IMG/VR virus record: IMGVR_UViG_3300037882_000593
Coordinates: 1 to 25,729 of that record
Strand: one strand, 5' to 3'
Length of the DNA: 25,729 nucleotides
DNA from: a virus
Position numbers and translations under genes: made by a program. Every line of letters begins with the position of its first letter. Positions within the stretch are counted from its first letter, which is position 1. The notes beneath the pieces are model-generated. The model was not told the origin of the DNA. It saw only the letters and a program-made list of their open reading frames with translations, and made no database searches. This document shows positions 1,356 to 25,617 of the stretch, in pieces.

Positions 1356-2057
1356 ATGTGGTTTCTGATTAGTTACAATCGCCCTGAGCGTTGTCGGGGA
1401 TTAATCGAGCAAATAAAAAGTCTTGGTGATTGCGATGAGGGTATCCTTGTTGTAAACGGCGGCGATGTAGCAAAATACCGCGATATAGAATTGCCCGCCA
1501 ACTGGTCGCGCTTGGAGTTACAAGATAATCTGGGATTACTCGGTGCTGCCAATTATATGTTTCAGCAAATGCCCGACGAGGATTGGTATGGGTTTATCAC
1601 GGATGACGAGATTCCCCTTACACCTGGCTGGAGTCAGACCCTAGTAAAAGAGGCAGGAAGCTGGAATATTTCACATGGTAATACGCAGTGGCAGTCACAC
1701 TGTAGGTTACACGGTGCGCCGGTTATGGGTGGGGAATTGTTACGGGCGGTAGGATACGTTGCCCCTACAGGATTATGGCATTGGTACGGGGATGACGTAT
1801 GGGAGCAGATAGCTTTCTTGTGTGGGTTGAGGCGTTTCTGTCCCGATATAATTATCGAGCATCGGCATTGGTTAAACGAGACAGCCAAGAAAGACGAGAC
1901 TTACGAGTCCAGTGAATCAAAGGCGTTTCAAGATAAAGATATTTACGAGAAGTGGCATAAAGACGAGTTTCCCAAAGTAATCGGCAGGATATGGGAAAAG
2001 ATGGCGTTAGCCACGGGGAACAAGCAGTTCATCCCTAATTATGAGAAACGGGCATGA
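1356..2057 (+). CDS. GT-A type glycosyltransferase (family 2-like)
   Basis: A 233-aa cytosolic protein. The N-terminus (WFLISYNRPERCRGLIEQI) is the first beta-strand and helix of a GT-A Rossmann-like fold. A 'NLGLLGAAN' segment follows at about 58-66, then the presumed metal/nucleotide-sugar acidic motif ITDDEIPLTPGW with D83-D84-E85. Further on come G145-D146-D147 and H169/H171, which could be the late acidic and His ligands of such enzymes. The expected reaction is sugar transfer from a nucleotide sugar to a phage or host acceptor; the acceptor cannot be read from the sequence. No good Shine-Dalgarno precedes the ATG. It overlaps the GroES gene by 4 bp (ATGA), so the two are translationally coupled. 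The fold assignment is good, the substrate unknown. Confidence 0.75.
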   Translation: MWFLISYNRPERCRGLIEQIKSLGDCDEGILVVNGGDVAKYRDIELPANWSRLELQDNLGLLGAANYMFQQMPDEDWYGFITDDEIPLTPGWSQTLVKEAGSWNISHGNTQWQSHCRLHGAPVMGGELLRAVGYVAPTGLWHWYGDDVWEQIAFLCGLRRFCPDIIIEHRHWLNETAKKDETYESSESKAFQDKDIYEKWHKDEFPKVIGRIWEKMALATGNKQFIPNYEKRA

Positions 2058-2338
2058 TTAGACCCCTTACCGATATTGTCATAGTCCGCAGGATTGACGA
2101 CAGCGAGACTAAAAGCAAGGGCGGGGTTATCATTCTTGAGTCAAACCCTGAATATTACCGCGCAGAAGTTGTTTACGCAGGGACGGGAAAGAAATACAGG
2201 AATCACCGTGTACCATTGGACGTAAAACCCGGTGACATACTGCTTTACGACAACTGGACAGGACAGAAAACAAACATCAACGGCGAAGAGCTTTGGGTTA
2301 TGAGACAAGACCATGCTTTAGGGGTTTTAGATGCTTAA
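2054..2338 (+). CDS. GroES/Cpn10-type co-chaperonin
   Basis: A 94-aa protein matching the length and layout of GroES (about 97 aa). It opens with MIRPLTDIVIVRRIDD, the usual 'RPLxDrVxVrr' beta-strand. A mobile loop follows (ETKSKGGVIILES), with a hydrophobic tripeptide-like VII/IIL segment that would bind GroEL. Then comes AEVVYAGTGK, PLDVKPGDILLYDNW and the C-terminal strand EELWVMRQDHALGVLD. GroES caps the GroEL chamber. A phage copy, as with T4 gp31, would retarget host GroEL, usually to fold capsid protein. No GroEL gene is present here. It is coupled to the glycosyltransferase before it (ATGA) and to the next ORF (TAATG). Confidence 0.92.
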   Translation: MIRPLTDIVIVRRIDDSETKSKGGVIILESNPEYYRAEVVYAGTGKKYRNHRVPLDVKPGDILLYDNWTGQKTNINGEELWVMRQDHALGVLDA

Positions 2339-2630: not shown

Positions 2631-2978
2631 ATGGTATGGAAAAAGGGCGAGAGCGGTTGCTCTGAAGGGCGCGGAAAAGGAAACCGTGATAAGCTATCGC
2701 GGGCTTTCATGCGGGCGCTTGTGGTTGACTTTGATGAGAACGGCGTTGCGGCTATTACTAAGGTTAGAAACACTGACCCGGCTTCTTATCTGCGTGTTAT
2801 TGCTTCAGTACTCCCGAAAGAACTTGAGGTTACCAATGTCGATAAAGATTTAAGCGATGAGCAACTTGCAGACATTATCGCTGCCCTGCGCTCCGGAATT
2901 AGCGCTGGCATCATTAGAGAGGCTGCAAAAGCAGAGGGCGAGCGAGAACAAGCTCAAGACATACCGGCCTTACACTAA
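2631..2978 (+). CDS. terS: Probable terminase small subunit (DUF5681-like)
   Basis: A 115-aa protein opening with WKKGESGCSEGRGKGNRDKL. This is the Gly/Lys/Arg-rich 'KKGQSGNPxGRPKGSRNKL' start of DUF5681 proteins. It is followed by FMRALVVDFDENGVAAI and DPASYLRVIASVLPKELEV, also characteristic of that family, which commonly sits directly before the large terminase. It would recognise the packaging site on the DNA and regulate the large subunit. An AAGGA box lies 12-17 bases upstream of the ATG, slightly far. Its last 122 bp overlap the large terminase ORF in another frame, an unusually long overlap. Confidence 0.75.
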   Translation: MVWKKGESGCSEGRGKGNRDKLSRAFMRALVVDFDENGVAAITKVRNTDPASYLRVIASVLPKELEVTNVDKDLSDEQLADIIAALRSGISAGIIREAAKAEGEREQAQDIPALH

Positions 2979-4269
2979 GCAGAAAGACTTCCACGCTGCG
3001 ATATTCCGTGAACGCTTGTTTATGGCGGGGAATCAGCTCGGAAAGACTGTAGCTGGTGGTTATGAGGCGGCGATGCACGCTACGGGATTATATCCCGATT
3101 GGTGGACTGGCAGAAGGTTTGATAAGCCGACGAAGGGCTGGGTTGCTGGTGTTACTGGCGAATCGACAAGGGACAACCCACAGCGTATTTTGATGGGCGA
3201 GCCTGGGAAGTTCGGGACTGGCGCAATACCAAAGGATTGCATAATAAGTCATAGTTCGGCGCGGGGAATAGCGGATGCAATCGACACGGTAAGGGTTAAG
3301 CATGTTTCCGGTGAGCCATCGGTTATAGCTTTCAAGAGCTACGAGAAAGGCCGGGAAAAGTGGCAGGGCGAAACGCTTGATTGGATATGGTTTGACGAGG
3401 AGCCGCCTTTAGATATTTACACTGAGGGATTGACGAGAACCAATGCCACGCAGGGGATTACGTTTATTACCTTCACGCCCCTGCTCGGCATGTCAGACAC
3501 GGTTATGAGATTCATAGGCGATGCCAAGGCTCCTAACACGCACGTTACCACGATGACGATTGATGACGCCGAGCATTATACGAAAGAACAAAGAGAGGCG
3601 ATTATTGCCAGTTACCCGCCGCATGAATTAGAGGCGCGGGTAAAGGGAACGCCGATGCTGGGAAGTGGTAGGGTATTCCCGGTTGCTGAGGATAAGATTA
3701 CCGAGGACAGGGTTGAAATACCCAAGCACTGGCCTAGAATTGTAGGGCTAGACATAGGCTGGGATCATCCTGCTGCCGCTGTGTGGATAGCGTGGGACAG
3801 GGATACCGACACGATACACATTTACGATTGCTGGCGGGAGAGAGAGACAACCCCCGCGATGCAAGCCCCTATAATCAGGGCTAAGGGCACATGGATACCC
3901 GTTGCATGGCCGCATGATGGATTGCAGCACGATAAGGGCAGCGGAGAGCAGTTAGCCGAGCAATACCGGCAGGCTGGATTAAACATGCTACACGAACGCG
4001 CCACGTTCGACGATGGAACAAACGGCGTAGAGGCCGGGGTATTGGATATGCTCCAACGGATGCAGACCGGGCGAATGAAAGTGGCAAGGCACTTGAACGA
4101 GTGGTTTGAGGAATTTCGCTTATATCATAGGAAAGACGGTAGGTTAGTTAAAGAGCGTGATGACTTAATGAGTGCCACGCGCTACGGGATTATGATGCTG
4201 CGCTTTGCTGAAACGGAAATGAAGCGGGTAAAGCAGAGCGCAAATCACACATCAAGCTGGATGGGTTAG
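2857..4269 (+). CDS. terL: Terminase large subunit
   Basis: A 470-aa packaging motor with ATPase and nuclease domains. Visible motifs are a Walker A at 57-64 (AGNQLGKT), a Walker B at 174-182 (LDWIWFDEE, catalytic D180/E181) and a coupling motif TFTP at 205-208. The RNase H-like nuclease has D299 in LDIGWD, D354 in PHDG and D435/D436 in ERDDLMSATRY. All expected catalytic groups are intact. It cuts concatemeric DNA and drives it through the portal into the prohead. The N-terminal 'KTYRPYTKQKDFHAA' is the usual adenine-binding start of the family. The ATG at 2857 is the only ATG upstream of this conserved part, so the 122-bp overlap with the small subunit seems real. Confidence 0.95.
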   Translation: MSNLQTLSLPCAPELALASLERLQKQRASENKLKTYRPYTKQKDFHAAIFRERLFMAGNQLGKTVAGGYEAAMHATGLYPDWWTGRRFDKPTKGWVAGVTGESTRDNPQRILMGEPGKFGTGAIPKDCIISHSSARGIADAIDTVRVKHVSGEPSVIAFKSYEKGREKWQGETLDWIWFDEEPPLDIYTEGLTRTNATQGITFITFTPLLGMSDTVMRFIGDAKAPNTHVTTMTIDDAEHYTKEQREAIIASYPPHELEARVKGTPMLGSGRVFPVAEDKITEDRVEIPKHWPRIVGLDIGWDHPAAAVWIAWDRDTDTIHIYDCWRERETTPAMQAPIIRAKGTWIPVAWPHDGLQHDKGSGEQLAEQYRQAGLNMLHERATFDDGTNGVEAGVLDMLQRMQTGRMKVARHLNEWFEEFRLYHRKDGRLVKERDDLMSATRYGIMMLRFAETEMKRVKQSANHTSSWMG

Positions 4270-4285
4270 TATCATAGGTTGAATA

Positions 4286-4787
4286 TTATCGATAATCGGT
4301 TTCATGCCTATTGTTTTTAGACTTATTGCATGGCCAGCACAGAACTTGGAGATTGCTAAATTCCATAGCTAATTCAGGATACTTTGATTTTGGTTTGATG
4401 TGGTCGATATTGATGTTTTTGGTTGAGCCACAACACATGCAAATCGCGCCGTAGAAGTGTAGGACTCTCCTACGTAGTAACTGCCAATCAGGGCAATTAT
4501 TGAGGCGATTTGACTTCTTCTTTTTCTTTGGTTTAGTTCTGAATTCAAGGTGTTGGGCTAATTCATTGGATTTTTCGGGGCTAACAACCCTAAGCCTTAA
4601 GTATAATTTACGGGTTTTTCTTGTTTTGCACCAAGCAGGAAGTGGGTATTTTTTTACGTGTTCCTCTCTTTCGGCATCTGTCGGAACAAAACGTGGCGTC
4701 CTTACGGGCATAGAATTCCTTTCCGCATGTTTTGCATGTGATTAGGCGGGCTTTTAGTGGTCTGTCACAGTGTGGGCATATATTCAT
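4286..4787 (-). pseudogene. Frame-split HNH homing-type endonuclease with N-terminal zinc ribbon
   Basis: Two overlapping minus-strand frames make one recognisable protein. The 5' part starts at ATG 4787 (MNICPHCDRPLKARLITCKT) with two CxxC-type pairs and a CSDRC motif, a zinc ribbon common in phage HNH enzymes. The 3' part (ATG 4711, stop 4286, 141 aa alone) has the HNH core: CMCC, then NIDHIKPKSKYPE, then N-LQVLCWPCNKSK. The frames meet at a run of seven A (minus strand; bases 4649-4655). Removing one A gives a single 166-aa protein. It is therefore a recent frameshift, a sequencing error, or a slippage-expressed gene. The 141-aa part could still be made from its own ATG. The insertion between terminase and portal, on the opposite strand, is typical of a free-standing homing endonuclease. 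Confidence 0.75.
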
Positions 4788-4846: not shown

Positions 4847-7015
4847 ATGGACAAAGACATCGTTGCCGAAGCAAAGGAAGCGTTCAAGGAGTGCGAAGAG
4901 GCGGAGCGCGACAACCGCGATGAGGCCTTAGACGACATTCGCTTTGCACGTTTGGGTGAGCAATGGCCTAGCGAGGTCATGGAACAGAGGAAAAGGGAAA
5001 GACGGCCTTGCCTTACGATTAACAAGCTCCCGGCGTTCTTGCGCCAGGTTATCAACGAGACACGGCAGAACAAGCCCTCGATTAAGGTGCATCCGGTTGA
5101 CAGCAATGCCGATGTTAAAACGGCAGAGATTATCAGCGGATTGATACGGAACATTGAATATACCAGCAACGCAGATGTTGCTTATGACACGGCAGCGGAT
5201 TTCGCAGCCACGATGGGCTTTGGTTATCTACGTATAGGGCTAGACTACGCCTGCGATGATACTTTTGACATGGACTTAAAGATTGACCGTGTTTCTAATC
5301 CGTTCACGGTTTACGGCGACCCTTACTCTACGTCAGCGGATAGCTCTGATTGGGATACGTCTTTCATAACCGATATGTTATCGGATGACAGATTCGAGCA
5401 ACGCTTCCCCGAAGCTGAAAAGATAGACTGGCAAGCCGACGGGGATAGCAACGCCGACTGGTTTGAAGATAAGCAAATCAGGGTAGCGGAATACTGGAAG
5501 CGCACGAAGGTCAAAAAGAACCTGTTAAAACTTTCGGATGGCAATATCGTTTACGAGGACTTCTTTCTACAGCCTGACCCGCAGACCGGCCTTTCAATGG
5601 CCGAGATTGCACAGGCTCAGGGCGTTCAGGTAGTCGGACAGCGATTAACCGATAGCTTTGAAGTCAAGCAATATACACTAAACGCCAAAGAGGTTTTAGA
5701 GGAAACCGACTGGGCGGGGCGTTATATTCCTATCGTTCCTGTGTACGGCGAGGAAGTGAACGTCGAAGGTAAAAGGCATTTTCTAAGCCTGATTCGTCAG
5801 TCAAAAGACGCGCAGAGAATGTTTAATTACTGGCGCACGGCGACGACTGAATTAGTGGCATTGGCTCCAAAGGCTCCTTACATCGGTGAGCAGGGAGCGT
5901 TTGACGTTGACAACAAGTGGACTACTGCGAACACCGACACCCATGCTTATCTTGAATACAAGAAAGGTTCGCAGATGCCGCAGCGCCAGATGTTCGCAGG
6001 GGTTCCAGCCGGGGCATTACAAGAGGCATTAAACGCCTCTGACGACATGAAAGCCATCATGGGCTTATATGATGCTGCTTTGGGAGCGAGAAGCAACGAG
6101 ACTTCCGGCAAGGCGATTATTGCAAGGCAACGTGAAGGTGATGTTTCTACCTTCCACTTCGTGGACAACGTCACCAGGGCGATACGTCACACCGGCAGGA
6201 TATTAATTGACATGATACCGCACGTTTACAGCGAGGAAAGGGTTGTCAGGGTTTTAGGTGAAGATGGTACACCGCAGACTGTAACACTGAACAAAGAACA
6301 GCCGCAGATTGACCCGAAAACCGGCCAGCCGATGATGCAGCAAACCCCGCAAGGGTTACAACCTATCATGGCGATTTATAACGTATCTGCCGGGAAATAT
6401 GACTTAACGGTTACGAGCGGGCCGAGCTACACGACAAGGAGGCAGGAAGCGGCTGAACACATGACGCAGTTGATTCAGTCCTTTCCTCAATCCGCTGCTA
6501 TTATCGCGCCGAGACTAGCTAAGAACCTGGACTGGCCGGAGGCTGATGAAATAGCCGCTGACTTTGAAAAGATTAGCCCGCTCAATCAACCGCCGCCTGA
6601 CCCGATGAAAGACCCGAAGGTTATGGTGGCGATGAAAACCGCTGAGTTCAAGCAGCAAGAGGCTGCCGCTGATATGCAACTTAAACAGCAGGAAGCTGGA
6701 CTCAACCAGCAAAACCAGCAAGCAGAATTGCAGATGAGTCGCGAGGATCTTGAAATAAAGAAGCAGAACGCCGAACTTGACGCGGCCATTAAGATAGCTA
6801 ATTTCAAGATTGATATGATGAGCAAGGACTCGACGCAGCAACAAAATATAGTAGAGGATAAACCTGATTCCGGGGCTATTCTGGCGCAAGCAGTAACCGA
6901 AGCTGCAAAATATATAGGTGATAGCTTACAGGCCGTTGCCGCTCAGTCAGCGCAGCCCAAGCAAGTGACGATGGTAAATTCACAGGGTAAACAACTCACC
7001 GCCACGGTGCAGTAA
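4847..7015 (+). CDS. Portal protein, P22 gp1 type
   Basis: A 722-aa protein, the length of P22 gp1 (725 aa). It starts with an acidic helix (AEAKEAFKECEEAERDNRDE), then RFARLGEQWPSEV and RPCLTINKLPAFLRQVINE, which I recognise as the N-terminus of the P22-type portal family. NPFTVYGDPYS is a further family block. The C-terminal 100 residues are Gln-rich and strongly helical (MQLKQQEAGLNQQNQQAEL onward), matching the coiled-coil barrel of P22-like portals. Twelve copies form the vertex ring that nucleates head assembly, takes the terminase motor and later the tail. AGGAA lies seven bases before the ATG. The next gene starts in a TAATG overlap. Confidence 0.92.
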   Translation: MDKDIVAEAKEAFKECEEAERDNRDEALDDIRFARLGEQWPSEVMEQRKRERRPCLTINKLPAFLRQVINETRQNKPSIKVHPVDSNADVKTAEIISGLIRNIEYTSNADVAYDTAADFAATMGFGYLRIGLDYACDDTFDMDLKIDRVSNPFTVYGDPYSTSADSSDWDTSFITDMLSDDRFEQRFPEAEKIDWQADGDSNADWFEDKQIRVAEYWKRTKVKKNLLKLSDGNIVYEDFFLQPDPQTGLSMAEIAQAQGVQVVGQRLTDSFEVKQYTLNAKEVLEETDWAGRYIPIVPVYGEEVNVEGKRHFLSLIRQSKDAQRMFNYWRTATTELVALAPKAPYIGEQGAFDVDNKWTTANTDTHAYLEYKKGSQMPQRQMFAGVPAGALQEALNASDDMKAIMGLYDAALGARSNETSGKAIIARQREGDVSTFHFVDNVTRAIRHTGRILIDMIPHVYSEERVVRVLGEDGTPQTVTLNKEQPQIDPKTGQPMMQQTPQGLQPIMAIYNVSAGKYDLTVTSGPSYTTRRQEAAEHMTQLIQSFPQSAAIIAPRLAKNLDWPEADEIAADFEKISPLNQPPPDPMKDPKVMVAMKTAEFKQQEAAADMQLKQQEAGLNQQNQQAELQMSREDLEIKKQNAELDAAIKIANFKIDMMSKDSTQQQNIVEDKPDSGAILAQAVTEAAKYIGDSLQAVAAQSAQPKQVTMVNSQGKQLTATVQ

Positions 7016-7536: not shown

Positions 7537-8409
7537 ATGAACACGACCAATCCCGAAACGGAAGTCGAAACCCAAGAAACTGAAGCTAATCCTGTTGAGG
7601 CAGTCGAAACGGAAGTCAAAGACCAAGCAGAAGAGCAGGATGCCGACCCGGAAGGTGAAACCGAGGAAACCGCCGACGATGAAACCGAAGAGGTTGAAAT
7701 CGAGGGTGAGAAATACGCATTGCCGAAAAAGCTCAAAGACAAGTTCATGATGAATGCGGATTATACCCGTAAAACCAGCGAACTCGCGGAGACAAAAAGG
7801 CAATTCGAGTCTCAACAGGCAGAGGCGAAGCAGACCTTAGAGAAACATAACAAGTATCTCAAGGATTTCGCTGAACTACAGGCAATCGACGGACAATTGC
7901 AGCAATTCGAGAGCGTGAACTGGACGCAGTTAATTAACGACGACCCGATTCAGGCTCAACATTTGCAGGCGCAATTTAACTCGTTGCACATGGCTCGCGG
8001 AAAGCGGGCTAACGATTTATCTCAGAAAATGCAAGAGGACGCTCTGAAAACGCAGCAGGACACTGCCAAGCGCGTACAGGAAGGCCAAGCCAGATTGCAG
8101 CGCGAGATTAGAGACTGGTCGCCGGAGAAAGAAAGGAATCTTCGTGATTACGCCAAGGCGGAATACGGCATAGACGTTCAGGAGAACGAGCTATCCCTTC
8201 TGCCTGGACATACGAAGGCTCTGCATAAAGCCTTTCTTTACGACCAACTCATGAAGAAACAGGCGCAGAAGCCAATAACGCCGGAAGTAAAACCTGTGAG
8301 AGCAGTTGGTGGGGCGGCGAAAGCCACTTCCGCACTTCCATCCGATAAAGACTCCATAGAAGTATGGATGCGTAAGGAGAAGGCGCGTTTGGCGAAGAAG
8401 CAAACGTAA
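7537..8409 (+). CDS. Capsid scaffolding protein (probable)
   Basis: A 290-aa protein directly before the coat gene, the place of the scaffold in P22-like phages. The first 55 residues are extremely acidic (Glu/Asp/Thr-rich). The segment VEIEGEKYALPKKLKDKFM follows, a block I know from putative phage scaffold/head-assembly proteins. Then comes a long charged, Gln-rich helical region (about 80-230) and a basic C-terminus ending in RKEKARLAKKQ. In P22, a basic C-terminal helix-turn-helix of the scaffold binds coat. This basic tail may do the same, by inference. A strong AAGGAG lies seven bases upstream of the ATG. Confidence 0.75.
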   Translation: MNTTNPETEVETQETEANPVEAVETEVKDQAEEQDADPEGETEETADDETEEVEIEGEKYALPKKLKDKFMMNADYTRKTSELAETKRQFESQQAEAKQTLEKHNKYLKDFAELQAIDGQLQQFESVNWTQLINDDPIQAQHLQAQFNSLHMARGKRANDLSQKMQEDALKTQQDTAKRVQEGQARLQREIRDWSPEKERNLRDYAKAEYGIDVQENELSLLPGHTKALHKAFLYDQLMKKQAQKPITPEVKPVRAVGGAAKATSALPSDKDSIEVWMRKEKARLAKKQT

Positions 8410-8429: not shown

Positions 8430-9671
8430 ATGAGTAACTCAATCCTAACGCCTACCGCAGTCACGCGGAAGGCGCTGATGATTCTGCACCAAAAGTGCAA
8501 CTTCATCGGCACAATCAATCGTCAATACGACGATAACTACAAGAACGGCGGTGCATCGACCAATGGTAAAAGCGGCCCGGATTTGAAAATCCGCCTGCCT
8601 AACCAATACACGGTACGCACTGGTGCGGTTATGGATGTTCAGGACACTGCTGAACTCTCCGTGACTCTCACATCTTCGACGCAAAAGGGCGTGGACGTGA
8701 ATTTCACCTCGGCTGACTTAACGCAGTCCTTGGATGATTTCTCCGAACGCATCCTTGACCCGGCGATGTCGGCTTTAGCTGCGGGTTTAGAATCCGACGC
8801 TATGAGCATGTACAAGGATGTGTATCAGGAAGTATCGGACGTTGGCGCTGCTATTTCGGCATCGGGCAGCTTAGCCCATGTGCTGAATGGCGAAAAAGTG
8901 TTGACGGATAGCCTGACGCCGACCTCTAGCCGAACCCTTAACCTGAATACGCGGGATAACGCGGATTTGGTTGGTTCGCTTGCCGGTTTGTTCAATGACC
9001 CCAAGAAAATCAGCTCGAACTTCCGTGAGGGCATGGTGGCCAATGAATTTCTAGGCTATCAAGGGGTTTTCCGCAACACCATCTGGCCGCTTCACACGAC
9101 CGGAACGGACGACGGCACTGGCGATTATCTCGTCAACCAGTCGAGCGTTTCGGAAGGTGCGACGAGCATTACGGTCGGTACTGGTGCGGGTACTTGGAAA
9201 CAGGGTGACATTTTCTACTTCGATTCTGTCAATAGTGTTCACCCGGAAACCAAGGAATCAACCGGCGTACTAGCCCCGTTTGTTGTAACGGCTGATGTTG
9301 GCGTAAGCGCAACCACGATTAACTTCTCACCGGCTCTTTATTCAACCGGCGGGCGGCAGAACGTGAGTGCAATGCCTGCATTGAACGCGAAGCTCAATAA
9401 ACTTGAATCTGACCGCAGCACTGCAATAGGTGCATCGGCGGATTACAAGATTTCGATGGGCTACCATAAAGATGCCTTTGCCTTTGCGACCGCAGATTTA
9501 GTCATGCCGAAAGGTGTGGATTTCTCTGCCCGCGAAGTATTGGACGGCATCTCGCTGCGTGTCGTTCGCCAGTACGACATCAACAACGACAAGCTCCCTT
9601 GTCGTATGGATGTTCTCTACGGCAAAAAGGCGATTCGCCCGCAATTGGCTGTTCGTTACGGCTTCAACTAA
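8430..9671 (+). CDS. Major coat protein, P22 gp5 family
   Basis: A 413-aa protein (P22 coat is 430 aa). The N-terminus SNSILTPTAVTRKALMILHQ is the signature start of P22-type coat proteins. It is followed by the N-arm/E-loop-like block PDLKIRLPNQYTVRTGAVMD and the ERILDPAMSALAAGLESD helix, all in the family order. It would assemble with the scaffold into a T=7-like shell with the HK97 fold. GGAG lies eight bases before the ATG. Codon use is more even and GC-richer than in flanking unknown genes, as expected for a highly expressed protein. Confidence 0.93.
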   Translation: MSNSILTPTAVTRKALMILHQKCNFIGTINRQYDDNYKNGGASTNGKSGPDLKIRLPNQYTVRTGAVMDVQDTAELSVTLTSSTQKGVDVNFTSADLTQSLDDFSERILDPAMSALAAGLESDAMSMYKDVYQEVSDVGAAISASGSLAHVLNGEKVLTDSLTPTSSRTLNLNTRDNADLVGSLAGLFNDPKKISSNFREGMVANEFLGYQGVFRNTIWPLHTTGTDDGTGDYLVNQSSVSEGATSITVGTGAGTWKQGDIFYFDSVNSVHPETKESTGVLAPFVVTADVGVSATTINFSPALYSTGGRQNVSAMPALNAKLNKLESDRSTAIGASADYKISMGYHKDAFAFATADLVMPKGVDFSAREVLDGISLRVVRQYDINNDKLPCRMDVLYGKKAIRPQLAVRYGFN

Positions 9672-11260: not shown

Positions 11261-12736
11261 ATGCTGATAGAGTTCGGGGAATATTTACCGGATTTGCCGA
11301 GCTTGGGAAACCCAGGTCTTGTTACTGCTAAGAACGTATTACCGAGGGAAAACAGTTACGACCAGTTTCCCGGATTGTCGGAGTTATACGATGCGCTTTC
11401 AGTTAGATGTTACGGGGCTTTCGGGACTCGCGATGTCGATGGGAATGCCTTTAATTTCGCCGGGGATGACACAAATTTATACAACCTTCAGGCTGGTGTA
11501 TGGACGGACGTAAGCGGTGCGACATACGCTACCCCTAGCGATGGGTTTTGGAGATTTACGCAGTATGGACGTAACGTCATGGCGACGAATTACGGAAACG
11601 CCATACAAAACTGGCTGATGGGTACGAGTTCGGCTTTTGCTAATTTGGGAGGCTCACCCCCGAAGGCACGTTATATCACCACGGTCAAGGATTTTGTGCT
11701 TCTGGGGAACATAGACGATGCTGTAGATGGCGCTGTGCCTAACCGTATTCATTGGTCGGCTTTGGGCGACCCTACGGACTGGACACCGGACGCTGCTACG
11801 CAATCCGACTTCCGAAACCTCGATGCCTCTAAGGGATGGGTGACACAGGTTGTCGGTGGTGAATATTTTACGGTATTTCAGGAGCGGGCTATTTCTCGCG
11901 GGAGTTATGTCGGCTCCCCGATAGTGTTTCAGGTTGACGAGGTAGAAAGCGGCAGGGGTACTCAAGCACAGGGAAGCGTTGCAAAATTCGGTAATCTTTT
12001 GCCGTATTTAGGTCTTGACGGGTTTTATATTCACAACGGGCAATCCTCGGAGCCTATCGGGGCGGGTAAGGTAGACAAGACATTCTACGCTGATTTAGAC
12101 CAGAATTATTACTACAGAATCACGTCCATTATCGACCCGATTAATAAATTATACATGATGGCCTATCCCGGCGCGGGTAATACCGCTGGGCGACCTAACA
12201 AGATAATGATTTTCAATTTCTCGCCTAATGCAAGAAAGAGGTGGGCTTATGCGGAGGTTGATACCGACGTTATATTTCCGTTTGTATCTCCGGGTTATAC
12301 GCTTGATGAACTGGATGCGTTCGGTAACATGGACACTCTGGCTTTCTCTTTAGACAGTCGGGTGTGGACGGGTAATTCCTCTATTCTGGCGGCGTTCAAC
12401 TCAAATAAGAAACTCGCTACGTTTACCGGCGATGCCTTAAGTGCTATTCTGCAAACCGGAGAGGTGAATTTGCTCGCGGGCTACCGTGCGCTTGTTACAT
12501 TGCTCAAGCCCCTTATTACGGGGGCCAGTGCGGCTGTGACAATGAACACGATAACCCGAAACACACGGCAGGAAAGCCAGACGGTGAGTTCGCCTATTTC
12601 CCTTAATGGAACGGGGAACGCGCCTTGCAGAAGTAATGCGTTTTATCACGGCTTCCGGGCGAATATATCCGGCGGGTTTGATGAAGCGCAGGGGATTATT
12701 ATACCGGATGAGTCAATTTCACGGCAGGGGATGTGA
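11261..12736 (+). CDS. Tail hub / packaged-DNA stabilisation protein, P22 gp10-like
   Basis: A 491-aa beta-rich protein, close to P22 gp10 (472 aa). It begins LIEFGEYLPDLPSLGNPGL, the normal start of this family ('PDLPsxxnPG...'). It then carries repeated beta-propeller-like segments, including HWSALGDPTDWTPDAATQSD and YFTVFQERAISRGSYVG, which I recognise as family blocks. It plugs the channel after packaging and forms the tube or nozzle of the short tail. It starts one base after the adaptor stop and ends in a TGATG junction with the next gene. Confidence 0.85.
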   Translation: MLIEFGEYLPDLPSLGNPGLVTAKNVLPRENSYDQFPGLSELYDALSVRCYGAFGTRDVDGNAFNFAGDDTNLYNLQAGVWTDVSGATYATPSDGFWRFTQYGRNVMATNYGNAIQNWLMGTSSAFANLGGSPPKARYITTVKDFVLLGNIDDAVDGAVPNRIHWSALGDPTDWTPDAATQSDFRNLDASKGWVTQVVGGEYFTVFQERAISRGSYVGSPIVFQVDEVESGRGTQAQGSVAKFGNLLPYLGLDGFYIHNGQSSEPIGAGKVDKTFYADLDQNYYYRITSIIDPINKLYMMAYPGAGNTAGRPNKIMIFNFSPNARKRWAYAEVDTDVIFPFVSPGYTLDELDAFGNMDTLAFSLDSRVWTGNSSILAAFNSNKKLATFTGDALSAILQTGEVNLLAGYRALVTLLKPLITGASAAVTMNTITRNTRQESQTVSSPISLNGTGNAPCRSNAFYHGFRANISGGFDEAQGIIIPDESISRQGM

Positions 12737-19042: not shown

Positions 19043-21442
19043 ATGACCCTCCTATTCAACGACCGCGTAAGGGAAACAGCGACAGCACCGGGAACGGGAG
19101 TTGTTACCTTATTAGGCGCTGAAACCGGATTTGAAACCTTTCTCGATGGCATAGGAAACGGAAATACCTGTTATTACTGCATAGAGGCGGTTGACAGCGA
19201 CGGGATACCAAACGGGGGATGGGAAGTTGGTTTAGGAACGATAGGGGCGGGGACACTTACTAGGGATACGGTTTATCAATCCAGCAACGGTGACGCAGCG
19301 GTAGATTTCGGCGGCGCTGTAGTTATATTTTGCACCATCCCCGCTGAATTTATTTCCAGCGTTGTAGTCGGCCCCGCATCTTCTACTGACAACGCCATCG
19401 CCCGTTATGATGGAACAACCGGCAAGCTGATTCAAAACAGCGCGGCCACGGTAGATGACACCGGAAACTTCACGGCGGGCACGTATAACGGCAATACGAT
19501 TGGTGTGGGTTCGACCTCTGGTACGAACACGGGTGACCAGACATCTATTGTTGGCATTACCGGAACCAAGGCCGAGTTTGACACAGCGGTCACGGATGGA
19601 GACTTTCTCTATGTCGGGGATGTAACTCAATACACTGATGAAATGGCTCAAGACGCAGTAGGGGGCATACTTGCTGACTCTACTGAGATAGACTTTACCT
19701 ACAACGATGCAACACCGTCCATCACCGCCTCGATAGTTGCTGGCAGCATTGACGAAACGAAACTTGATACTTCCGTAAACGCAAGTCTAGACCTTGCTGA
19801 TTCTGCCACACAGCCGGGTGATGCAGCGACAACGCTTAATGTTTCAGCAACAGACCGCTTGCTTGGCAGAGACACTGCCGGAGCCGGTGCGGTAGAGGAG
19901 CTAACTGTTGGTGGGGGTGTAGAATTTACTGGCTCTGGCAGCATACAACGTTCTGCTATATCTGGTGATGTAGTTATTGCGGCTGGTTCAGGCACTGCGG
20001 CAATAGGTACAGGCGTTATAGTAAATGCCGATATAAATGCATCTGCTGCCATCGCTCTTTCAAAATTAGCAACACAAGCAGCTAACTCAATAGTTGCTAA
20101 CGCCACCACCGGGGCCGCTGTTCCTACAGCAGTTTCCATAGCAGCCTCTCGTCTTGTCGGGCGTGATGCCTCAGGCAACATTACCGGACAGACAGTCGGG
20201 GGTGGTATAGAATTTACTACGGGCGGTATTCAACGTTCGGCTCTAACCGGGGACGTTACGGCCTCAGCCGGTAGCAACACCACAGCGATAGGTGCCGGGG
20301 TCATAGTCAATGCTGATATAAACGCCTCGGCAGCGATTGATGCCACGAAAATTGCCAACGGTACTGTTTCCAGTACCGAATTTCAGTTTTTAGATGGCGT
20401 TACCTCGGCCATTCAAACGCAGCTCGACGGCAAGCAGGCTACAGGCAGCTACATTACAGCCCTTACGGGTGATGTTACGGCAAGCGGTCCAGGTTCGGTA
20501 GCGGCCACCATTGCGAATGACGCAGTAACGTTTGCTAAATTCCAAAATATTGCCGCCTCGCGCCTTTTAGGTAGAACTTCTGTCGGATCAGGCAATACGG
20601 AAGAAATATCAGTAAATTCGCCTCTCGTGCTGCAAATTGGAGCGTTGAGTCTTGACACAGTGCCGGTGACCAAAGGAGGAACAGGGCAGGTATCATATAC
20701 CAACGGCCAGCTTCTAATCGGCAACACCACTGGAAATACTCTAACCAAGGCGACACTTACCGAAGGCGAAGGCATTGACGTTACCAATGGTGCTGGTTCA
20801 ATCACCATCGCCGGAGAAGATGCCAGTTCCAGCAATAAAGGCATCGCCAGTTTCGATGATGATTATTTCACTGTAACTTCTGGCGCGGTAAGCACCAAAA
20901 CAGCATCAATCCACCCCGGATATTCTTCCTCCCGCTATTATTGCCCGTTTAACACAGGCGACCAGAGATTTACTACCGTTGTTCTTGCTGCTGGCATTGT
21001 GCTTTATGTACTCCATGAAATAAAAACGCCAGTTACTTTAGATAAGCTTTCCATCGAGGTAACAACTGCGGCGGTGGGAGCCACGAACCTTGCAAGACTA
21101 GCTTTCTATTCCGCTTCAAGCGGATACCCTGCAACCAGATTAATAGACGCTGGAACAGTGGATATTTCTGGAACAGGTGTAAAGGAAATTACTGGTCTTT
21201 CTACGGCTTTAGAGCCGGGTTGGTATTATGCAGCAATTCTACCAAGCGATATTGTAACAGTCCGTGGGTACGGAAGCACTACGATTGGCGGGGATAATTT
21301 CTCTATAATCGGCACGACTACTTTCCAAGGCCGCTCACCGGCTATATTTCAAATTCAGGCATACGCCTCAGGTATGCCATCAAGCGCAAGCGGAAGCGAA
21401 GCACTCAACACCGCAAACCCCGACATCAGTTTTAGGTTATAG
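19043..21442 (+). CDS. Long tail fibre with internal repeats
   Basis: A 799-aa fibre-like protein. The N-terminal domain (LLFNDRVRETATAPGTGVVT, then GIPNGGWEVGLGTIGAGTLT) is a compact beta module often found at the start of phage fibres. SSTDNAIARYDGTTGKLIQN begins a shaft of beta-repeats. Within it a repeat starting 'A-S-R-L-V/L-G-R' occurs three times, with TVGGGIEFT, IQRSALTGDVTAS and VIVNADINASAAI. SSTEFQFLDGVTSAIQTQL and DGKQATGSY form a linker seen in many fibres. The C-terminal about 190 residues (after SIHPGYSSSRYYC) form a globular beta domain that would be the receptor-binding tip. It starts right behind the first fibre gene with no strong ribosome site. Confidence 0.8.
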   Translation: MTLLFNDRVRETATAPGTGVVTLLGAETGFETFLDGIGNGNTCYYCIEAVDSDGIPNGGWEVGLGTIGAGTLTRDTVYQSSNGDAAVDFGGAVVIFCTIPAEFISSVVVGPASSTDNAIARYDGTTGKLIQNSAATVDDTGNFTAGTYNGNTIGVGSTSGTNTGDQTSIVGITGTKAEFDTAVTDGDFLYVGDVTQYTDEMAQDAVGGILADSTEIDFTYNDATPSITASIVAGSIDETKLDTSVNASLDLADSATQPGDAATTLNVSATDRLLGRDTAGAGAVEELTVGGGVEFTGSGSIQRSAISGDVVIAAGSGTAAIGTGVIVNADINASAAIALSKLATQAANSIVANATTGAAVPTAVSIAASRLVGRDASGNITGQTVGGGIEFTTGGIQRSALTGDVTASAGSNTTAIGAGVIVNADINASAAIDATKIANGTVSSTEFQFLDGVTSAIQTQLDGKQATGSYITALTGDVTASGPGSVAATIANDAVTFAKFQNIAASRLLGRTSVGSGNTEEISVNSPLVLQIGALSLDTVPVTKGGTGQVSYTNGQLLIGNTTGNTLTKATLTEGEGIDVTNGAGSITIAGEDASSSNKGIASFDDDYFTVTSGAVSTKTASIHPGYSSSRYYCPFNTGDQRFTTVVLAAGIVLYVLHEIKTPVTLDKLSIEVTTAAVGATNLARLAFYSASSGYPATRLIDAGTVDISGTGVKEITGLSTALEPGWYYAAILPSDIVTVRGYGSTTIGGDNFSIIGTTTFQGRSPAIFQIQAYASGMPSSASGSEALNTANPDISFRL
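19841..20650 (+). repeat. Three-copy fibre-shaft repeat
   Basis: The coding sequence repeats a module: copy 1 about 19841-20065, copy 2 about 20138-20350, and a shorter, degraded copy 3 about 20549-20650. Copies 1 and 2 share 'RL-L/V-GRD', 'TVGGG-V/I-EFT', 'IQRSA', 'GDV', 'AIG-x-GVIVNADINASAAI'. The DNA has drifted at third positions, so the duplication is old and kept at protein level. Repeat number may set fibre length. Confidence 0.65.
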
Positions 21443-23035: not shown

Positions 23036-23227
23036 ATGGAAATACTACCATGGCTTTTATCTACTGAGTACGGCCCGTACCTCTTGGCGTTCCTGACCGT
23101 CTTAGGCGCTTTGGTCACGGCTGCTTCGGCGATTGTGCCTTTCACCACCACCACGAAAGATGATGAATTTGTCGGCAAGGTGAAAGCCCTGCTGGCGAAG
23201 TTCTCCGTGTTTCAGCCTAAAGCATAA
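23036..23227 (+). CDS. Small membrane protein, holin candidate
   Basis: A 63-aa protein with one clear membrane helix (YLLAFLTVLGALVTAASAIV) followed by PFTTTTKDDEFVGKVKALLA and a basic amphipathic end. Short proteins with this 'VTAASAIxxxTxTxKDD' pattern are frequent in lysis regions of phages and are often annotated as holin or holin-like. AGGAG lies six bases before the ATG. It is linked by TAATG to the i-spanin gene, which supports a lysis function. A single-TM protein could be a class III holin or a pinholin. Confidence 0.6.
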   Translation: MEILPWLLSTEYGPYLLAFLTVLGALVTAASAIVPFTTTTKDDEFVGKVKALLAKFSVFQPKA

Positions 23228-23451
23228 TGCCAACCGGCGTTTACCTTGCTATCGGCTTTGTCGTCCTTCTGGCTGCTGTGGTATTTGTCTCCCGTAAATG
23301 GGGCAAATCATCGGCCAAGGCCGACATTGCCGGTGAAGCCGCCAAGCGACAGGCAAAACTTATGGAGGTTTCCAATGCGATTGAGCGCGAAGTTGATGCT
23401 ATGCCCATTGCTGATGCTCGCCGCGAGTTGTACCGCGACGCCACAGAATGA
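23227..23451 (+). CDS. i-spanin (Rz-like)
   Basis: A 74-aa protein with an N-terminal membrane anchor (VYLAIGFVVLLAAVVFVSRK) and a charged helical periplasmic part (AGEAAKRQAKLMEVSNAIER), the topology of inner-membrane spanins. It overlaps the holin candidate stop (TAATG). A lipoprotein gene in the +1 frame begins inside it at 23375, the classic nested Rz/Rz1 arrangement. It would bridge inner and outer membranes with the lipoprotein and fuse them after peptidoglycan is cut. It is shorter than lambda Rz (153 aa) but in the range of other phage i-spanins. Confidence 0.72.
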   Translation: MPTGVYLAIGFVVLLAAVVFVSRKWGKSSAKADIAGEAAKRQAKLMEVSNAIEREVDAMPIADARRELYRDATE

Positions 23452-23791: not shown

Positions 23792-23838
23792 GTCTTAGCC
23801 GAGCGGAGATTACTGAGCAGCTTATCTGGTTGGGTCAT
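23788..23838 (-). CDS. Very short coupled ORF (16 aa)
   Basis: A minus-strand ORF from ATG 23838, encoding MTQPDKLLSNLRSAKT. It starts in an ATGA overlap with the stop of the Lar-like gene and stops in an ATGA overlap with the 42-aa membrane protein. It may simply hand ribosomes from one gene to the next, or encode a functional micro-peptide. The evidence is only the two perfect overlaps. Confidence 0.35.
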   Translation of the reverse strand: MTQPDKLLSNLRSAKT

Positions 23839-24071
23839 GCTTTTAACCTAAATCTATTCCATGAATCTATACCCGCAGTACGAGCAATTTCTTCTGTATG
23901 TCCGGCAGGATGTAATGAATGCCCACATGAATAACACTTAGCATTCGCCTGATATTTTAAGCCAGGGTACCTTTCAACGCCATCTGGCATTACTATTTCT
24001 AAACCAACATCTTTGCTATGGCAAACGGGGCAATTCTTCATTTCTGGATTATTGATTGAATTATCGGCCAT
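23835..24071 (-). CDS. Lar-like zinc-ribbon protein (restriction alleviation family)
   Basis: A 78-aa protein with two CxxC pairs, C14-P-V-C17 and C46-Y-S-C49-G, separated by a beta-rich part (VGLEIVMPDGVERYPGLKYQ). It ends with ARTAGIDSWNRF, the 'A-I-x-x-W-N-R' tail shared by Lar-type proteins and related phage zinc ribbons. Lar of Rac alleviates EcoK restriction by stimulating modification. Whether this one does so cannot be read from sequence. A perfect AAGGAG (24084-24079) lies seven bases before the ATG. It overlaps the upstream 46-aa gene. Confidence 0.72.
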   Translation of the reverse strand: MADNSINNPEMKNCPVCHSKDVGLEIVMPDGVERYPGLKYQANAKCYSCGHSLHPAGHTEEIARTAGIDSWNRFRLKA

Positions 24072-24201
24072 CGTTTAACTCCTTAGCTTCCCATTGAGCG
24101 TAGGCTACGGCAACTTCCGGCGCATCAAGAACGTCTAGAAGCCACCACCCGGTGAACTTCACGCGATAAAGTCGCCAAATCTCTTTAATCAGCTTTTTCA
24201 T
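24061..24201 (-). CDS. Small protein (46 aa), unknown
   Basis: A minus-strand ORF from ATG 24201 to TAA 24061, with AAGGA five bases before the start. The sequence MKKLIKEIWRLYRVKFTGWW is basic and amphipathic with a Trp pair, followed by an acidic helical half (LLDVLDAPEVAVAY, WEAKELNDG). It could bind a membrane surface or a protein partner. It overlaps the start of the Lar-like gene by 11 bases and the upstream 58-aa gene by 17 bases. The family is not recognised. Confidence 0.6.
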   Translation of the reverse strand: MKKLIKEIWRLYRVKFTGWWLLDVLDAPEVAVAYAQWEAKELNDGR

Positions 24202-24361
24202 CGGCATCCTTATTGTTCGTCCAGTTTGGTTGTATTTTGCTTTTTCTCTTTATCCCCTGTTTTTGCTTTAGATGGTGTGTGCAAAGCTCATTTCCCCAGT
24301 ATGTTTTAAATTCACATTGGGTTCCGTATATAGTCTTGGCTATACATCTTTTCCTTTCCAT
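24185..24361 (-). CDS. Small Cys/His zinc-finger protein (58 aa)
   Basis: A minus-strand ORF from ATG 24361. MERKRCIAKTIYGTQCEFKT continues with a segment ending in LCTHH. The spacing C6-x9-C16-x10-C27-x2-H30 fits the small 'RCxAxTxxGxxCxxxxxxGxxxCxxH' zinc-binding motif found in many phage and bacterial proteins. The C-terminal half is Lys-rich. A GGAG abuts the ATG directly, a poor spacing, and an in-frame stop lies close upstream, so no earlier start is possible. The structured RNA domain lies just upstream and may affect its translation. Function unknown. Confidence 0.6.
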   Translation of the reverse strand: MERKRCIAKTIYGTQCEFKTYWGNELCTHHLKQKQGIKRKSKIQPNWTNNKDADEKAD

Positions 24362-24390
24362 CTCCGCTAATCACTTTCTCGTTATAATGG

Positions 24391-24494
24391 TGGGAGCCGA
24401 TAAAGGGTATTCACCATAGCTCTATCCCCGCCTTCGCCGTATTGGTTCTATGTATTCCCATACGATCTACTCTATTTCACCGGCTCGGCTCCCA
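24391..24494 (-). ncRNA. Structured RNA domain B (candidate)
   Basis: A perfect 10-bp closing stem pairs TGGGAGCCGA (24494-24485, minus strand) with TCGGCTCCCA (24400-24391). Inside it, a GTAT/ATAC hairpin at 24463-24452 is capped by GGGA, a GNRA tetraloop if read on the minus strand. GCCG/CGGC (24484-24481 with 2439x positions 24439-24436) and GGT/ACC pairs can form around it. No convincing ORF covers this stretch on either strand. It ends about 30 bases before the start of the 58-aa gene, so it could act as its leader or be part of one larger RNA with domain A. Confidence 0.5.
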
Positions 24495-24516
24495 TACTGG
24501 ATATTATCTTGGTTAA

Positions 24517-24703
24517 TCTTAGCGAATAGCGGGCTGCATTCGTAAACGATAGGTCTGCATAGTCACTATCGCTGTACCCATGTCGTCTAGCCTCGGCTGG
24601 AAGTCCCCTATGCGGGAGCCAGCAACTTCAACTAGAACCTTCAGACACAGCAGCTTCTAAGGTCTATGATCTCGGTATGCCGAGCCACCGCTATTCGCTA
24701 AGA
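24517..24703 (-). ncRNA. Structured RNA domain A (candidate)
   Basis: On the minus strand TCTTAGCGAATAGCGG-type arms (24703-24688 and 24532-24517) pair over 16 bp without a mismatch, enclosing 155 nt. Inside are a CTCGG/CCGAG hairpin with CATA loop (24684-24671) and a 10-bp helix (24651-24642 with 24580-24571). That helix encloses a 7-bp helix (24636-24630/24592-24586) and a GCTGG/CCAGC hairpin (24623-24596) with an inner four-pair extension. A GATAG/CTATC hairpin (24570-24548) stacks next to the 10-bp helix, and its loop CTATG can pair with CATAG at 24668-24664. Several helices need G-U pairs that exist only in a minus-strand transcript. No known family is recognised. Confidence 0.6.
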
Positions 24704-24725
24704 CAAACTCCTTTCGATAAATACT

Positions 24726-25115
24726 TTAGTTGGGTATGTAGACGGGTTTCCCCGCCTTAATATCCGCAAGAGCCGCTTCGCCTTTATCAGTCAAGACGCA
24801 ACGTGACTTGTGAATTGGATTGTGCGGCGGTGAATCATATACAAAGCCCCACTTCTCCAGCTTCGCAAACATTGCTGGTGCAAGCTCCCAATGACAACCT
24901 TTATACATTCCGTTTTCACATGACTTCGGGTATGTCATAGCCTTGCGTAATTTCTTACCCATGATCTGACCGCTAGAAACTAGCTTGACAGGGCTTGGCT
25001 TATCATCCTTGGCGCATGAAGCGCACGACCTAGGGAAGCCATCACCTTCACCGAGATATTCACCGCAATACTGACAGTCATCACCGTTCAATATGTATTC
25101 TGCATATTCACCCAT
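24726..25115 (-). CDS. Phage zinc-ribbon protein (129 aa)
   Basis: A minus-strand protein from ATG 25115 with a good AAGGAG seven bases upstream. GEYAEYILNGDDCQYCGEYL and DGFPRSCASC form a zinc ribbon (C14, C17, C31, C34). This 'CxYCGEYxGxGxGxPRSC' pattern recurs in small phage proteins of unknown function. The C-terminal half has a winged-helix-like look: PAMFAKLEKWGFVYDSP, then CVLTDKGEAALADIKAG, close to the 'LTxxGxxAL' wing of HTH proteins. It may be a small DNA-binding regulator. It is followed by the structured RNA region. Confidence 0.65.
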   Translation of the reverse strand: MGEYAEYILNGDDCQYCGEYLGEGDGFPRSCASCAKDDKPSPVKLVSSGQIMGKKLRKAMTYPKSCENGMYKGCHWELAPAMFAKLEKWGFVYDSPPHNPIHKSRCVLTDKGEAALADIKAGKPVYIPN

Positions 25116-25365: not shown

Positions 25366-25617
25366 TCAGTGTTCTACAAAATCACATTTTATTTCATCCA
25401 GCTTGAAGGCCAAATCGGTGCGCCCTTCCTTACGAAATATGGCGGCAGCCTCGTCAAGCGTATATTTAGCAACTTGCAGGGGTATTCTATAATCCGCCGA
25501 TGAGCCAACATAATCCCCATTTTTCCTAGACCGACTATGTAATTCCTTCCGCAAATCTTCGGTGGATATGTCGCAAAGCACATCCTCAGCATCTACATGA
25601 ACACTAACGTATGGCAT
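25366..25617 (-). CDS. Small hypothetical protein (83 aa)
   Basis: A minus-strand ORF from ATG 25617, preceded by GAGAGGA at a good distance. MPYVSVHVDAEDVLCDISTE followed by DLRKELHSR resembles small phage proteins that open 'MPYVxVxVDxxDxLxxISDEDLxxEL', usually of unknown role. The middle (YRIPLQVAKYTLDEAAAIFR) and the end (FKLDEIKCDFVEH) are helical and acidic. It is the second gene visible in the reverse block. Confidence 0.55.
   Translation of the reverse strand: MPYVSVHVDAEDVLCDISTEDLRKELHSRSRKNGDYVGSSADYRIPLQVAKYTLDEAAAIFRKEGRTDLAFKLDEIKCDFVEH

Follow-up and report, generated by a model that had tools for sequence, protein, structure and literature searches.

Why does an operon of small phage genes contain a long perfect inverted repeat in a stretch that carries no gene? 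The stretch lies in a virus record of which 25,729 nucleotides, referred to here as the window, were analysed, and an initial annotation took it for an undescribed structured RNA. In our view the leftward operon probably carries here a lineage-specific structured RNA domain, a reading to which we give about an even chance. Accident, a DNA-level function, a mobile-element remnant and a decayed gene were weighed against it.

A gene-free stretch in the leftward operon

According to protein-family annotation, the 25.7-kb virus record is a fragment of a P22-like podophage, and its portal shares less than 48% identity with the nearest named portal. The following products were assigned:

2857-4269: large terminase
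4847-7015: portal
7537-8409: scaffold
8430-9671: coat
11261-12736: virion protein
19043-21442: tail-fibre-like protein
23227-23451: spanin-like gene

In addition, a phage-borne GroES/Cpn10 co-chaperonin gene (2054-2338, plus strand, E 4e-16) is located shortly upstream of the terminase gene, and an HNH endonuclease gene (4286-4711, minus strand) lies backwards between terminase and portal.

The minus-strand genes run leftward from the right end, from 25617 down to 23835, and their products are small, family-less proteins except for a Lar-like one at 23835-24071. The gene-free stretch sits between genes 24726-25115 and 24185-24361, all on the same (minus) strand of this operon. Gene 24185-24361 encodes a small Cys/His protein (RCIAKTIYGTQCEFKTYWGNELCTHH) that resembles short zinc-binding phage proteins, and its sole Pfam match is a weak one to WRC (E 0.04).

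The absence of a convincing gene, as annotated initially, was borne out: all six frames contain stops, codon scores are near zero, and the read-through peptides found no protein counterpart at E<=10 in PHROGs, in Pfam or among 50,697 phage records. On the minus strand, directly before the inverted repeat, a Shine-Dalgarno-like motif GAAAGGAG (24715-24708) is found 6 nt ahead of a TTA at the expected start-codon position, and the upstream gene 24726-25115 likewise carries GAAAGGAG 6 nt ahead of its ATG. Judged by this shared motif and spacing, the motif may be either a lost gene start or a motif that is now part of the RNA. The first possibility includes a decayed small gene, i.e. a minus-strand frame TTA GCG AAT ... 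CGC TAA inside 24701-24517 that is interrupted by a TAG and has lost its start. Such a frame is correctly placed behind the motif and has a weakly gene-like codon score (0.074); however, it matches nothing in the above databases at the same threshold and leaves the inverted repeat unexplained, and we consider it very improbable. An alternative code with read-through of TAG was rejected as well, since TAG is the stop of seven genes listed here and there is therefore no recoding.

The closing stem and its predicted interior

The 16-bp perfect inverted repeat described initially (24517-24532 with 24688-24703) was found by sequence inspection and repeat search to be exact in both coordinates and perfection. 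A repeat finder lengthens its arms to 21 nt (24512-24532 and 24688-24708, 90% complementary with two mismatches, 155 nt apart), and 20 of the 21 positions pair once a G-U pair is allowed. Among inverted repeats with arms at most 400 bp apart, no other in the window approaches this one in perfect length. The initial estimate that such a pair arises once in 70,000 cases is about right for one isolated 338-base stretch (some 57,000 position pairs divided by 4^16), but it ignores the search space of 25.7 kb: dinucleotide-shuffling the entire window 4223 times gave four sequences with perfect arms of 16 bp or more lying within 400 bp, or about 1 in 1000. About five loci in 1.95 Mb of related phage sequence carry perfect repeats of at least 16 bp, which we read as repeats of other kinds: L012 and L019 have dispersed repeats, L047 tandem units, L109 a near-continuous hairpin and L143 an unexplained 21-bp pair. 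The long inverted repeats of L012 (5022-5424) and L019 (4187-4520) lie just 3' of the portal gene and are apparently copies of one dispersed repeat (GTCATACTCGGACCCGAG...).

On the minus strand, the direction of the operon, the predicted fold consists of a long closing stem and four inner hairpins:

24512-24708, minus strand: domain A, candidate structured RNA of 197 nt, no Rfam match
24688-24708, minus strand: closing stem P1, 5' arm GUUUGUCUUAGCGAAUAGCGG, perfect over the 16 bp 24688-24703 (repeat finder, predicted fold)
24512-24532, minus strand: closing stem P1, 3' arm CCGCUAUUCGCUAAGAUUAAC, perfect over the 16 bp 24517-24532 (repeat finder, predicted fold)
24667-24687, minus strand: predicted hairpin 1, 8 bp, loop CAUA
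24636-24664, minus strand: predicted hairpin 2, 9 bp
24587-24635, minus strand: predicted hairpin 3, hexaloop GCAUAG at 24613-24608
24537-24582, minus strand: predicted hairpin 4, CUAUGC in the loop at 24562-24557
24383-24511, minus strand: domain B, a weaker 3' part with a 10-bp pair (24391-24400/24485-24494)

On the operon strand, the predicted folding energy of the 197-nt unit is -80.1 kcal/mol (z -5.0, with none of 300 shuffles as good), compared with z -3.9 on the plus strand. The 155-nt interior alone reaches z -1.1, and when the arms were fixed, 40 of 300 shuffled interiors folded equally well and 38 of 300 were equally well defined. The closing stem supplies nearly all of the folding-energy signal; the interior is ordinary in stability and only moderately well defined. 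Therefore, the nested inner helices noticed in the initial annotation are present in the MFE structure but stand at chance level in stability, and they are not evidence by themselves. The 10-bp pair, also noticed initially, is present and forms part of the predicted fold, but it is near chance: in 150 shuffles of the 338 bases, the longest pair measured 9 bp nine times and 10 bp five times, and the region 24383-24494 containing it is no more stable than its shuffles (z -1.3).

A loop pairing had been proposed between CATAG (24668-24664) and CTATG (24562-24558). Both motifs are present, but CATAG is partly helical, and the proposal is better replaced by one with the free hexaloop of hairpin 3, in which GCAUAG (GCATAG in the DNA, 24613-24608) is complementary in all six bases to CUAUGC (CTATGC, 24562-24557) of hairpin 4, giving a 6-bp kissing pair. 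Of 2000 shuffled interiors folded between the unchanged arms, 7 had two hairpin loops with at least six complementary bases, and 9 of 2018 interior-length windows elsewhere in the contig had a loop-loop pairing of at least 6 bp, making the feature rarer than about 1 in 220, a figure computed after the pair had been spotted. The loop of hairpin 1 and the bases next to hairpin 2 contain the short motif CAUA as well. Although it was seen prior to the test, the kissing pair is the best independent sign of design in the element.

These frequencies bear on the possibility of chance or a functionless spacer, in which an accidental inverted repeat in a gene-free stretch was picked out of the many windows read. 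With about one window in 1000 yielding such a repeat, many windows scanned, ordinary interior stability and nothing conserved, an accident is conceivable; however, the repeat falls in a gene-free operon stretch, its pairing extends to 20 bp, and it coincides with the loop-loop pairing as a second rare feature, so that we hold chance to be unlikely.

Relatives of the element and DNA-level alternatives

In line with the initial annotation, the stretch matched no described family: an Rfam covariance search gave no family, whether at the gathering score or at the lax threshold of E<=10, with GOLLD, ROOL, OLE, the lysine riboswitch, group I/II introns, tmRNA and 6S among the models. ARAGORN detected no tRNA or tmRNA gene in the fragment. 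No homologue of the element was found by blastn in phage and plasmid records, by blastn/nhmmer across 160 loci, or among portal and DUF5675 relatives (157 loci). A covariance model of the element (R1), which was built from one sequence so that distant relatives could be missed, found nothing credible in the full records of 88 related viruses (best 9.6 bits, E 0.25) or in the remaining related loci, and no match in 274 genomes of one class. Pattern searches of viral contigs with the stem, the kissing loops and hairpin 1 gave DNA matches that were not homologous. Meanwhile, the stem pattern matched 24 times in 84,980 genomes; many of these matches are heptamer repeat arrays, their interiors are unlike that in the window, and the best R1 score among them (20.8 bits) was carried by the stem.

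Among the neighbouring genes, 24726-25115 has a sole homologue (L002, 69%), which is directly followed by another gene with the element absent; the 14 nt that do match in the L002 record appear to be coding and were discarded. Gene 25366-25617 has only a short partial match (L160). The arrangement in L002, together with a Shine-Dalgarno-like motif that precedes TTA rather than a start codon, is consistent with a MITE-like remnant whose arms are terminal inverted repeats and which, inserted behind the Shine-Dalgarno motif, displaced the start of a gene. However, besides the TIR-like arms, neither a target-site duplication at either arm end nor several copies could be seen: there is no second copy in the window and none in viral contigs with arms at the same spacing, and the 24 genome matches differ inside. 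A mobile-element origin thus seems quite improbable to us.

Alternatively, the arms could act at the DNA level, as inverted recombination sites flanking a 155-bp invertible segment such as an invertible promoter, or as paired protein-binding sites. With arms of 16-21 bp separated by about 155 bp, the repeat fits the general form of invertible promoters, a DNA repeat requires no stable interior (matching z -1.1), and a 9/12 sigma70-like match lies inside the element on the plus strand (24642-24670). However, the promoter-like count in the region resembles that of shuffles (5 vs 3.6), no recombinase is present among the proteins scanned in the fragment, and the arm sequences occur at no other place in the window; we consider a DNA-level function improbable. 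No convincing promoter or terminator was found at the edges of the candidate RNA.

As to the heptamer arrays, those of GCGAATA and those of TATTCGC face each other over short intergenic distances. They occur in several unrelated phyla, including Rhizobiales and near kin (L188, L192, L193, L194, L198, L199, L201, L203, L208), Ignavibacteria (L195, L200) and Bacillota (L186, L187, L202), and also in a phage contig (L169). A literature search did not find these arrays themselves; a comparable heptamer case is that of the TAACTGA repeats (PMC4679880). In a Chlamydiae MAG, a very long near-perfect hairpin (L196 5746-5929, -172 kcal/mol) ends in GCGAATAGCGG arms similar to those of the window.

A possible role and comparison with known RNAs

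An undescribed structured RNA, as originally suggested, is the best reading of a stretch with no Rfam match, no gene, a lower z on the operon strand and a rare loop pairing, although the interior has no excess stability and no homologue was found in which compensatory changes could be sought. We infer that the domain would be co-transcribed on the minus strand between genes 24726-25115 and 24185-24361, where the stem of about 20 bp would clamp both ends, four hairpins would radiate inside, and the kissing loop would lock hairpins 3 and 4 into a compact body. A stable RNA would most likely be released or protected from the operon transcript. It may act by binding a partner, either a protein of host or phage origin or a second RNA, because a clamped, loop-locked body in an operon is the usual form of a partner-binding RNA; it may also, or instead, shield the transcript between the two gene groups. 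Nothing in the analysis speaks specifically for the packaging or host-factor-decoy roles proposed at first. It is possible, though doubtful, that the element represents a new compact phage RNA class, defined by a five-way junction, a long clamp stem and a kissing-loop lock, that is produced from the leftward operon and targets a host factor. Few phage structured RNAs are understood beyond a handful of families, and a short RNA whose closing stem is plain and whose kissing loop can be tested would make an easy subject; as a single orphan sequence, it is at present a lead and not a discovery.

The GOLLD and ROOL ornate RNAs are phage or prophage RNAs in gene-free regions, with an elaborate fold, kissing loops and no known function; they frequently neighbour tRNA islands, are supported by covariation and are represented by Rfam models (PMC12286853). 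The candidate is similarly phage-encoded and gene-free, with a predicted elaborate fold and kissing loop, whereas it is only about 200 nt long compared with the far larger GOLLD and ROOL, has no tRNA in the fragment and matches no Rfam model. The phi29 pRNA is another phage RNA with loop-loop pairing, as predicted for this phage-borne candidate, but here there is no Rfam match and no link to packaging. An inverted repeat from end to end is a feature of retron msr-msd RNA as well as of the candidate, and the string CUUAGCGA resembles what we take to be the branch-point region of retron Ec86; unlike in a retron, the pairing continues through the supposed branch site. No reverse transcriptase (PF00078) was found in the fragment, which is an incomplete genome, while 3 of 14 control genomes were positive. 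In the lysine riboswitch (RF00168), a five-way junction is combined with a long P1, and the neighbouring hairpins P2 and P3 kiss. In the candidate it is the last two hairpins (P4/P5) that are predicted to kiss, and no Rfam model matched at E<=10, but its predicted fold has the same three elements, a five-way junction, a long P1 and kissing neighbour hairpins.
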